Assembly: GCA_016783965.1 (NCBI GenBank)
Contig: JADHVO010000004.1
Location: 124,001 to 188,000, forward strand
Length of the DNA: 64,000 nucleotides
Source: Alphaproteobacteria bacterium
GTDB taxonomy: Bacteria; Pseudomonadota; Alphaproteobacteria; Micropepsales; Micropepsaceae
Reading direction: 5' to 3'
Shown here: piece by piece, positions 11,836 through 17,971 of the stretch
Layout: the number at the start of each line of letters is the position of its first letter
Position numbering within the stretch: position 1 is the first letter of the stretch
The notes under the pieces: model-generated
Seen by the model: only the letters and a program-made list of their open reading frames with translations
The model's database searches: none
Told to the model about the DNA's origin: nothing
Translations under genes and position numbers: made by a program

Positions 11836-12111
11836 CTAGTACCAGCCGTGGAAGCGGTGCTCGTGATAGTGCGAGTGCCAGCCACGGTCACCGCGGTCAC
11901 CCCGGTCACCGCGATCGCCGCGATCGCCGCGATCATAGCGATCGCCACGATCGTAGCGGTCGTAGTCGCGGCCCCAGCCGGCGTCGCGGTGGTAGCCCCA
12001 ATGATAGTCGTCATAGCCGCGGGCACTGGCGGGCGTGACGGCGGCGACGCCGGCAAGACCGACGAGCGCCGCGATGATGGTGGACTTGAGAAGCCTGGAT
12101 TTCGACAGCAT
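11836..12111 (-). CDS. small exported protein with tandem Asp-Arg-Gly repeats
   Basis: A 91-residue protein with a signal peptide (cleavage after TPASA). The mature part has Tyr/His/Trp-rich ends and a central run of at least six DRG triplets (residues about 55-77). At the DNA level this is a set of 9-bp tandem repeats at roughly 11884-11970, so the length probably varies between strains. It is highly charged and predicted disordered. Function unknown; a cell-envelope or metal-binding role is possible. Confidence 0.65.
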   Translation of the reverse strand: MLSKSRLLKSTIIAALVGLAGVAAVTPASARGYDDYHWGYHRDAGWGRDYDRYDRGDRYDRGDRGDRGDRGDRGDRGWHSHYHEHRFHGWY

Positions 12112-15175: not shown

Positions 15176-15595
15176 CTATTCGTTCGCCTGGAAGTCCGGG
15201 AAGCGCAGGACGACGCGCTGTGTCGGACCGTTGCGCAGGTTGAACGACGCGTTCGCCGGCCGCGCGGTCGAGCCGTTGATCGCGGCGCTGACCTGATACC
15301 GGCCGGCCGGACCCTGCACGAGGACCCAAGGGCCTGCGCAGTTCAGATCGGCGATCGGCTGGCCGCCCTGGCTCAAGGTCACATGCGCGCCGGACAGGTA
15401 TTGCGCGCCGCCGTTTGAGAACTCGATGCGGACCGGATAGCGCGACCACTGCGGGTCGTCCTTGGCGGAACCGACGCCGGTGCAAACGGTCTGGATGCTG
15501 CCGAAGGACACGGGCGTATCCATCGACATGGGCTGGGGCAGCGTGGGCGCCGTCACCGCGGCGGCCAGAAGTATGGCTCCGTGAAGGTTCATCAT
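15176..15595 (-). CDS. exported beta-rich hypothetical protein
   Basis: A 139-residue protein with a signal peptide (MNLHGAILLAAAVTAPTLPQ). The mature part has the strand pattern of a carboxypeptidase-regulatory or CNA-B-like domain (GAHVTLSQGGQPIADLNCAGPWVLVQGPAGRYQVSA) with a likely disulfide. Adjacent Met codons at 15592 and 15595 are alternative starts. Function unknown. Confidence 0.65.
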   Translation of the reverse strand: MMNLHGAILLAAAVTAPTLPQPMSMDTPVSFGSIQTVCTGVGSAKDDPQWSRYPVRIEFSNGGAQYLSGAHVTLSQGGQPIADLNCAGPWVLVQGPAGRYQVSAAINGSTARPANASFNLRNGPTQRVVLRFPDFQANE

Positions 15596-15680: not shown

Positions 15681-16871
15681 TCAGGCGGCGCGGAGCGGCG
15701 TCACCCGGGGAAGGTAAAGCACGGCGTCGGCCTGGGCGGCGAGCGGGGTTTCAAACACGGCGTTGTACATGTGGCCGATCGCGACGGGCCGGTCGAACAG
15801 CCCGGGCGCGTCGGCCGGGAAGAACAGGAGCGGCGCCTGGGTGAGGCGTGCGAGTTGCGCGTTGAGGGTGCGGGACGGGAAGTTTGCGCGGCGCGGGAGC
15901 GTCGAGAGAGGCTGGCAGTCCTCGCCGGCACCGTAGAGCATCCAGATCGATAAGACGCGGCGTTTGCGTTCCTGCGCCAGCCAGTGGCCGAGCGACGGGA
16001 CCCTGTCGCCGCCGGGGCCGACGCCGGGGGAGGCGATGAGATTGTCGTTCTTCGCAAGATGCAGCGCGTGCCCAAGGAGCATCTGGCGTTCGCTGGCGAG
16101 CAGCCGTTCGGCTTCGCGGTAGCGCCGCTTCATCGCGCCCTCGCGGAACGCCATGCCGGGGCGGACGGCGTCGTAGGTCCTCGCGGTGTAGGTCATGGCG
16201 ATGTAGTCGAGGCTTTCGGCCAGTGCGTCGCGCGCAGCGGCGATCTGCGGCGGCCAGTCGGCCGGGATCGTAATGGCTCGGAGGCGCACAGCTTCTTCGT
16301 GCGGCGTCTCGCCAGGGATGCGTTGCAGCGACTGCCGGATGGGTGTGGTGCGCGGGTCATTTGGGGGCAGCAGGGCGGCCATGTCGTCATAGGCGCCGCC
16401 GGGCAGCGCATCGATGTCGATGCCGGCGTGGCGGGCCGGCAGGCCCGCGGCGCGGAGGCCGTTGATAAACCGCTTCTGCTCGGCCACGAATTCGGCGGCC
16501 GGATAGCCGTCCACTTTGAGGATGCCGCCGGGGCGGTCGTCGCGATCTGGGCGCAGATGCGTCAGGTCGTCGAAAGACGGCAGGCGCAGCGCACTTTCGT
16601 CGCCGGTTTGCAGATAGCGGTCGATACGATAGCCGTCGCTCCAGCCGATCTCCTCAAAGACATCGCGCCAGCCCTGCACGAGGAGGAAGCGCGCGAAGAG
16701 GAGACGGAAATCCGTCTTCTCATGCACGAAGTGATTCAACTCGCCCAGGGCGATGACGTCGTGACCTCCGATGCGGTCGGCGAGCGGCGCGAGCAACGCC
16801 GGGCCGGCTTGCGAAAGGTCAGGCGGCAGGCGGATGGCGCGCGTTTCGATGAAGCGCGCCAGCGGGATCAC
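15681..16871 (-). CDS. erythromycin-esterase-like protein (divergent member)
   Basis: A 396-residue protein of the erythromycin esterase fold. Catalytic-type residues are visible as GELNHF (Glu and His), EEIGWSDG (Glu) and GHALHLAKN (His). Classical Ere enzymes hydrolyse the macrolide lactone, but most chromosomal relatives have unknown substrates and this one is well diverged. The GTG at 16871 overlaps the TGA of the zinc-finger/HTH gene (GTGA), which strongly supports this start and tight coupling to that regulator. Confidence 0.75.
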
Positions 16872-17275
16872 GAGAACCGTTCCCACGCCGCCTGGCGCGA
16901 CACCCCGAGCGCGGCCGCGATGTCGGCCCAACTCACTTCACGCTTGCGCAGGATATCGACGGCTTCCTGCATGCGGTCGCGCACCTGGATATAGGCCATG
17001 TTGTAACCCTTGATCATGCCGAGAACCGTCGGCGTCTCGAGTGTGTCGAGGTTCTTGATCTCCGCCGGGTTCGGGTCCGGTGTGTCGGCCATGATCTTCT
17101 CGCAGAGCGCAACGCACTCGTTGCAGATGAAAACCCCGGGGCCAGCGATCAGCTTCTTCACGTCGTACTGCGGCTTGCCGCAGAACGAGCAGAACATCGT
17201 GCCGGGCGGATGCTTGCGGAGGTCAAGCGCCGGACTGTAGTGGCCGGTCTTGGGTGACTTGGCATTGTCGCTCAT
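16868..17275 (-). CDS. ClpX-type C4 zinc finger fused to a short HTH domain
   Basis: A 135-residue protein. Residues 28-60 match the ClpX zinc-binding domain ([17 protein letters not shown], then [10 protein letters not shown]) with all four Cys. There is no AAA+ ATPase. The C-terminal 45 residues ([39 protein letters not shown]) read as a helix-turn-helix. ClpX zinc domains dimerise and recognise substrates or adaptors. Here the domain is joined to probable DNA binding, so this is likely a regulator of its own operon and perhaps of the divergent sodC-like gene. The downstream erythromycin-esterase-like gene overlaps its stop. Confidence 0.85.
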
Positions 17276-17285
17276 ACGAACCTCG

Positions 17286-17346
17286 CTGTCAGGTCAACCC
17301 TGACAGTCAAGCTTGCCCTGACAGTCTTGTCAAGTTGAACCTGACG
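17286..17346. promoter_or_regulatory. operator-like array of CCTGACAG motifs in the divergent promoter
   Basis: CTGTCAGG-N5-CCTGACAG (17286-17306) is a perfect 8-bp inverted repeat beginning 11 bp upstream of the zinc-finger/HTH gene start. CCTGACAG recurs at 17317-17324 and CCTGACG at 17340-17346, reaching towards the sodC-like gene at 17396. The cluster is best read as binding sites for the adjacent regulator. This assignment is inference. Confidence 0.6.
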
Positions 17347-17395: not shown

Positions 17396-17971
17396 ATGAA
17401 ACGCATTCTGGCAGGCATGGCGGCGGCCGCGCTGATCGCGAGCGGTCCGGCCGTGGCAGCGGCATCGAAGGCGCGCGCGATCGCGAAGCTGACCGGGATC
17501 GACGGGCAGCCGGCCGGCACAGTGTCGTTCGCAGCGACCTCGCATGGCGTCCTGATGGTGTTCGACCTGAAGGGGCTGACGCCCGGCGCGCACGGCATCC
17601 ACATCCATACGTCGGGCAGCTGCGATCCAAAGGTGGTGTTCACCTCCGCCGGCCCGCACTTCAGCGACGATGCGAAGAAGTTGCATGGCTACCTTGCGGA
17701 GCACGGCATGCATGCGGGCGACCTGCCCAACCAGTTCGCCGCGAGCGACGGCACGCTGCATGCGACGGCGATCAGCAATGCGTTCTCGCTGGGCAACGGC
17801 AAGAAGTCGATCTTCGACCGCGACGGGGCGTCGATCATCGTGACGGCGAAGCCCGACAACTACTTGAGCCAGCCGGACGGCGGCTCCGGCGAGCGCGTCG
17901 CCTGCGGCGTGATCATGCGTACCGTGGCGCCGGGATCGGCCAAGCGCGGATCGAATCGCCCGCACAAGTGA
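17396..17971 (+). CDS. sodC: periplasmic Cu/Zn superoxide dismutase-like protein lacking one Cu ligand
   Basis: A 191-residue protein with a signal peptide (KRILAGMAAAALIASGPAVAA). The SodC fold is clear: HGIHIHTSGSCDP (two Cu His and one disulfide Cys), SAGPHF (bridging His), KLHG and MHAGD (zinc His, His, Asp), and GERVACGVI (active-site Arg and second Cys). At the fourth copper ligand, where families read I(V/H)H, this protein reads IIVTAKPDNY, so His is replaced by Thr. The enzyme may have altered or no dismutase activity. It is divergent from the zinc-finger/HTH regulator. Confidence 0.85.
   Translation: MKRILAGMAAAALIASGPAVAAASKARAIAKLTGIDGQPAGTVSFAATSHGVLMVFDLKGLTPGAHGIHIHTSGSCDPKVVFTSAGPHFSDDAKKLHGYLAEHGMHAGDLPNQFAASDGTLHATAISNAFSLGNGKKSIFDRDGASIIVTAKPDNYLSQPDGGSGERVACGVIMRTVAPGSAKRGSNRPHK

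Follow-up and report, generated by a model that had tools for sequence, protein, structure and literature searches.

A ClpX-type zinc domain joined to a ClpC2-kind helix-turn-helix in an alphaproteobacterium: a candidate self-repressor carrying a ClpX docking domain

What does the zinc domain of ClpX do in a protein that has no unfoldase module? The question is raised by a small gene in a 64,000-nucleotide stretch of DNA, hereafter the window, from an alphaproteobacterium of the Micropepsaceae (GenBank assembly GCA_016783965.1, contig JADHVO010000004.1, positions 124,001 to 188,000). Its product, of 135 amino acids (aa), joins a ClpX-type C4 zinc domain to a C-terminal helix-turn-helix (HTH), and is referred to here as ZF-HTH (zinc finger-HTH). 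The original prediction, made from the letters of the window, had proposed that the ClpX zinc domain was reused in a transcription factor. Our comparison supported this main point, through the predicted HTH fold and a set of conserved dyads, and the reading can probably be sharpened to a ClpC2-like mode of working: we assign a probability of roughly 0.6 to the window protein being a ClpC2-like self-repressor that carries a ClpX docking domain. The gene and the parts of its product are as follows.

16868..17275, minus strand: ZF-HTH gene, 135 aa, with ClpX-type C4 zinc domain, linker and C-terminal HTH (open reading frame and profile matches)
17087..17194, minus strand: ClpX-type zinc domain, residues 28-63 (PF06689; superposition on 2ds8)
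16874..17035, minus strand: HTH region, residues 81-134 (AlphaFold2 model; ClpC2 N-terminal profile match)
16874-16897, minus strand: predicted recognition helix, residues 127-134 (AlphaFold2 model; ClpC2 N-terminal profile match)

PF06689 matched the window protein with an E value of 1.3e-18 and 67 bits against a Pfam cut-off of 27, and the PDB sequence closest to it was 1ovx, the zinc domain of E. coli ClpX (E 2.5e-14). The four Cys residues (29, 32, 51, and 54) have the order and spacing found in ClpX, as had been read from the sequence beforehand, and the absence of an AAA+ domain held equally, since no AAA+ family was among the Pfam and NCBIfam matches beyond the zinc domain. PADLOC gave no match. 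The genome's own ClpX is encoded elsewhere; the second and sole other PF06689 match of the genome lies in a 437-aa open frame on a different contig and bears a ClpX-type motif. SspB is encoded in the same genome.

Structure prediction, the check first proposed for the C-terminal segment, folded it as an HTH. The AlphaFold2 model, computed for single chains from a five-sequence input, had an overall mean predicted local distance difference test score (pLDDT) of 74.9 and a predicted template modelling score (pTM) of 0.39, with block pLDDT values of 87-94 for residues 101-135, and placed helices at residues 52-64, 81-111, 116-123, and 127-134. The earlier recognition of an HTH-like segment was thus confirmed by the predicted helices, though all C-terminal HTH families stayed below their Pfam cut-offs; the best was HTH_AsnC-type (PF13404) with 19.1 against 27 bits, and membership of the Lrp/AsnC family was not supported. 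In fold searches, 41 residues of the modelled zinc domain were superposed on 2ds8, a structure of the ClpX zinc domain bound to the SspB tail (root-mean-square deviation (rmsd) 0.8, Z 5.7). For the HTH region, residues 87-135 matched the DNA-binding portion of Fis (3iv5) over 47 residues (rmsd 2.6, Z 5.3); Z values of about 5 are little proof alone and are consistent with the sequence evidence. Chains of RelI and ClpC2 were not among the matches listed in either fold search, which carries no weight as evidence.

The closest parallel to this arrangement was offered by ClpC2, described in the available text of Taylor et al. (2023, PMC10030653) as an actinobacterial partial homologue of ClpC1 that represses itself and acts as a sponge for cyclomarin A, which relieves the self-repression. 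When the ZF-HTH C-terminal profile was aligned with a ClpC2-like N-terminal profile, hhalign returned 97.1% (E 5.2e-11, 34 columns), and single ClpC2-like proteins scored 94-97% against the ZF-HTH profile. Three AsnC-type HTH controls from the same genome gave 0.1-8.5%, a contrast that is favoured by the controls being 34-42-residue fragments with scores thereby lowered, one of them also lying under its family cut-off. In BLASTP, one of the ClpC2-like proteins aligned with the window protein at 48% across 29 residues. A PDB search with the C-terminal profile returned RelI (9sdc) at E 1e-11 and, weakly, ClpC2 (8ada, Rv2667) at E 0.011; the 8ada chain stops just short of the helix that aligns with the ZF-HTH recognition helix, and the available text on 8ada states that residues 4-72 of ClpC2 remained after proteolysis (PMC10030653). 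Judged from these profile alignments, the HTH of the window protein is of the ClpC2 kind.

The ClpC2-like genes used for comparison came from plasmid records, six of the seven matches being used and the Nocardia one left out. Clp_N (PF02861) was present in all three ClpC2-like proteins scanned and absent from the window protein in the Pfam scan; the window protein is therefore neither ClpX, for want of AAA+, nor ClpC2, for want of Clp_N. It resembles ClpX in its N-terminal C4 zinc domain and departs from it in lacking the AAA+ module and possessing an HTH. With ClpC2 it shares the related HTH, the presence of a docking domain from a Clp unfoldase with no AAA+ module, and, next to the start codon, tandem dyads of 7-5-7 layout whose core is GTCA. 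ClpC2, however, has the Clp_N docking domain of ClpC1 in place of the ClpX zinc domain, and the domain order is reversed, the docking domain coming first and the HTH last in the window protein. The commonest forms of the recognition helix also differ (TKQAAQKR in ClpC2, SRQAAWER in ZF-HTH), as do the dyad arm ends (AC and RG, respectively), and ZF-HTH occurs in Alphaproteobacteria as well, unlike the actinobacterial ClpC2. An observation on ClpC2 itself is that its counterpart of the ZF-HTH recognition helix in the alignment falls between the solved pieces 4-72 and 94-252. The alignment suggests that the DNA-recognition helix of ClpC2 lies between these crystallised pieces; DNA contact is instead proposed in the C-terminal domain, through R185 and R189, in the available text (PMC10030653).

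Among solved structures, the nearest HTH is that of RelI (M. tuberculosis Rv2664), which acts as antitoxin to RelS; the resemblance of RelI to ClpC2 in the HTH region was also seen by its authors in the part of their article available (PMC13284704). This raises the alternative that ZF-HTH is the antitoxin of a toxin-antitoxin pair in which the zinc domain holds the toxin: RelI neutralises RelS according to the same available text, and next to a BrnT-like toxin of a mycobacteriophage is a protein annotated as an antitoxin whose HTH is similar. Yet RelI has no zinc domain and is partnered with a toxin, unlike the window protein, whose gene lies between sodC and an esterase-like frame with no adjacent RelE- or BrnT-like toxin gene in the window, and no small neighbour shared across the ZF-HTH loci was evident by eye. 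We consider the antitoxin explanation very improbable. As regards DNA binding by RelI, its authors report no evidence in the available text (PMC13284704).

Within the 60 bp upstream of the ZF-HTH gene there are three 19-bp dyads of the form TGTCARG-n5-CYTGACA, and all three are contained in the stretch 17286-17346 that had earlier been proposed for a DNA-binding test.

17287..17305, no strand: dyad 1, proximal, 0 mismatches, 11 bp ahead of the start codon
17305..17323, no strand: dyad 2, 1 mismatch
17328..17346, no strand: dyad 3, distal, 1 mismatch

TTGACA in an arm of dyad 3 (17328-17333, minus strand) could serve as the -35 element of the ZF-HTH promoter. In ClpC2, according to the available text, the operator CGTCAAC-n5-GTTGACG is often repeated, adjoins the open reading frame, and lies over the promoter (PMC10030653); among the six ClpC2-like genes collected here, 7-5-7 GTCA dyads preceded five in two copies, two of these five being sequence-identical, and the remaining one in a single copy.

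The dyad pattern was derived from the window and the genomes G022 and G028 only, and was then scanned over the 200 bp before the start codon of ZF-HTH genes, with at most two mismatches allowed. One to three dyads were located in 12 of 13 genes, and dinucleotide shuffles of the same upstream stretches gave a mean of 0 to 0.010 sites each with a maximum of 1. A 14th gene, in G498, has three dyads upstream, so that 13 of the 14 members carry them in total; outside the members used to define the pattern, the proportion was 10/11. The dyad-bearing members span Alphaproteobacteria, Streptomyces, Nonomuraea, and three IMG/VR contigs. For the Streptomyces gene, one of the three scored sites is a two-mismatch place between two good dyads, and the start position used for G091 is offset by 3 bases.

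The total of 14 distinct ZF-HTH proteins was obtained from a scan of all loci collected, which indicates that no member was omitted. The actinobacterial members belong to Nonomuraea gerenzanensis and a plasmid of Streptomyces zaomyceticus, the latter being annotated merely as a 'ClpX C4-type zinc finger protein', and the three IMG/VR contigs encode further ones. Left out of the membership were L007, in which the zinc-domain frame ends ahead of any HTH; L086, with 17 residues of a similar HTH at a contig end and no upstream DNA; L115 and L149, with a zinc domain and no HTH; and L155, L156, and L080-L082, with an HTH and no zinc domain. No description of ZF-HTH was found among the matches listed in the literature searched, most subscription papers being outside reach.

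Taken together, the protein homology and the conserved dyads allow self-repression by the window protein to be strongly inferred: the HTH, presumably as a dimer, would bind the 19-bp dyads that cover the promoter of its gene, so keeping expression low. A possible answer to the opening question then comes from the ClpC2 analogy, in which sensing would fall to the docking domain. According to the available text of PMC7804408, the zinc domain of E. coli ClpX has one hydrophobic area, F16 and I46 included, to which SspB, RssB, and trigger factor all bind and which partly coincides with the lambda O site. With positions matched by counting, on the assumption that the published numbering omits the start Met, the residue corresponding to F16 was Phe in 13/13 members and that corresponding to I46 was aliphatic in 12/13 and Tyr in 1/13 (G498 not included). 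The zinc domain thus appears to retain the surface that ClpX uses for adaptors and substrates. By analogy with ClpC2 and cyclomarin A, from which both the ligand and the decoy step are drawn, occupation or alteration of this domain probably triggers release from DNA; an adaptor or substrate, a phage protein, or a toxin directed at ClpX could each have this effect. More of the protein would then be made, and the surplus copies would compete for the ligand and spare ClpX as decoys. A ligand of the F16/I46 patch could affect the repressor in the way that cyclomarin affects ClpC2.

The same zinc-domain properties would suit a tether or feedback regulator of ClpXP, in which the partner of the domain is an adaptor or the zinc domain of ClpX itself. 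While on DNA, such a protein would report on ClpXP or be removed by it, so that its amount follows the ClpXP load and not a toxin. The isolated ClpX zinc domain dimerises and binds adaptors, according to the available texts (PMC9035409, PMC7804408), and the genome has ClpX and SspB of its own. This explanation alone leaves the ClpC2-type HTH and operator unexplained, though it is compatible with them, the main difference from the favoured self-repressor being the ligand; we hold it to be unlikely.

The neighbouring genes bear on a further explanation and are listed here.

17396..17971, plus strand: sodC, Cu/Zn superoxide dismutase, divergent, 49 bp from dyad 3
15681..16871, minus strand: esterase-like frame overlapping the ZF-HTH stop (GTGA) (open reading frame; PF05139, 16.4 bits)
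15176..15595, minus strand: gene of a 139-aa protein

Since sodC is divergent and close to the dyads in the window, and adjoins ZF-HTH in five of the six members of the genus, the protein might be a zinc- or redox-sensing self-repressor whose Cys cluster loses zinc or is oxidised, whereupon the protein is released and induction follows for its gene and perhaps for sodC; in that case it would be incidental that the domain comes from ClpX. The four-Cys cluster is present in all 14 members, though they were selected by it. Of the 42 sodC matches in the genus, 30 loci were compared (at most two mismatches). All five sodC loci with an adjacent ZF-HTH gene had three dyads each, whereas none of the 25 others had dyads, nor the gene beside them. 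One of these 25, G430, has its ZF-HTH gene away from sodC with the dyads at the ZF-HTH gene, and in G029, where sodC and the 139-aa gene are adjacent, neither ZF-HTH nor dyads lie between them. These observations tie the dyads to ZF-HTH rather than to sodC. Moreover, the dyads of G434 are 244 bp from sodC, tblastn found no sodC in the stretches around six members tested outside the genus, and the adaptor-docking positions, which a Cys switch would not need, are kept. We thus regard the zinc or redox explanation as rather unlikely, if less so than the ClpXP tether. As a target of regulation through the dyads, sodC is at most a candidate, with 49 bp in the window against 244 bp in G434 and with the 25 dyad-free sodC loci.

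On the other side of the gene, the GTGA overlap with the esterase-like frame is present in the sequence as originally reported; the weight then placed on this tight coupling did not hold. A match to the frame was found in 1/69 genomes of the genus (E 1e-20) and at none of the four syntenic loci, so that a conserved pairing with ZF-HTH was rejected, and the erythromycin-esterase-like label is weak (PF05139, 16.4 bits against a cut-off of 26.4). The 139-aa gene comes after ZF-HTH in four other members of the genus; in many congeners that have no ZF-HTH, it is found in the vicinity of sodC. From its rarity and its position between ZF-HTH and the 139-aa gene, the esterase-like frame is probably a recent gain. 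Outside the genus no common downstream gene was seen by eye, which fits a protein acting by itself.

Several findings weigh against the self-repressor reading, in addition to the shortness of the HTH controls noted above. The -10 candidate at 17305-17310 is poor (3/6). The gene of G369, the single member with no dyad, encodes an altered recognition helix (SHQIAQERF). Among relatives having a similar HTH and no zinc domain, L155 and L080-L082, the last three being alike, have no dyads, indicating that this HTH does not invariably bring the operator; L156 (2785-3660), a 275-aa protein, has two perfect TGTCARG-n5-CYTGACA dyads directly upstream, indicating that HTH and operator also occur with other domains. 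Because these zinc-domain-free relatives mostly have no dyads, our confidence is slightly reduced. Among viral loci with a perfect ClpC2-type palindrome (at least 120 stretches in the scan, 80 loci examined), the narrow HTH motif was within 130 bp in 0/80 among the matches listed; a dyad by itself is therefore not diagnostic. Genome-wide, the dyad places with at most two mismatches compared with a backward control as 18 to 19 in G000, 15 to 14 in G022, and 16 to 7 in G028. The sodC neighbour leaves room for a zinc or redox signal. Lastly, the family is rare and patchy, being found in 6/69 genomes of the genus, 3/385 of a class sample, and 2/398 of a phylum sample in which at most 14 candidates were scored per genome, each count including the window's own genome.

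A wider regulon beyond the ZF-HTH locus was not shown, the genome-wide counts in G000 and G022 being about those of the backward control. Further one-mismatch dyads, taken as chance, were one in G000 (C7:103065), about 170-190 bp ahead of a hydrolase-like frame, one in G022 (C22:87456), and none in G028. Separately, a two-mismatch dyad (L089:2162-2180) occurs just upstream of a BrnT-like toxin gene in mycobacteriophage prophi104-2, where the next gene is the antitoxin with the similar HTH.

ClpC2 was described as an answer to ClpC1-directed antibiotics, and a ClpC2-like ZF-HTH would likewise suggest agents directed at the ClpX zinc domain. If a ClpX docking domain has been put to a parallel use, with a recognisable operator of its own, ClpC2 would be an instance of a design principle and not a single case. 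More speculatively, and in our view doubtful as a whole, unrecognised natural agents, antibiotics or phage proteins, may act on the ClpX zinc domain; the ZF-HTH proteins of Alphaproteobacteria and actinobacteria may be inducible sensor-decoys against such agents; the organism of the window may have added an esterase-like hydrolase to form a sense-and-detoxify operon; and a Clp docking domain and the same kind of HTH may have been joined at least twice as self-repressing decoys. A reporter strain driven by the dyads would serve as a screen for ligands of the ClpX zinc domain.

Phages and phage-plasmids also encode stand-alone zinc-finger proteins (PHROG 6797 and others) that have a ClpX-type zinc domain and no AAA+, and in this respect they are like the window protein. 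In L091 (2339-2662, a phage-plasmid) and L071 (2758-3126, a prophage contig), small proteins have the zinc domain at the C-terminus with no HTH after it and no AAA+, unlike the window protein. In some records, the stand-alone zinc-domain match lies under a gene annotated as a carboxylate-amine ligase. A further case of a ClpX zinc domain on a transcription protein is provided by cyanobacterial sigma factors, for which zf-C4_ClpX is given among the accessory domains (6.29%) in the available text of a survey (PMC11119718). Elsewhere in the window, a small frame on the minus strand (11836-12111) encodes a tandem RGD-type repeat following a possible signal peptide.
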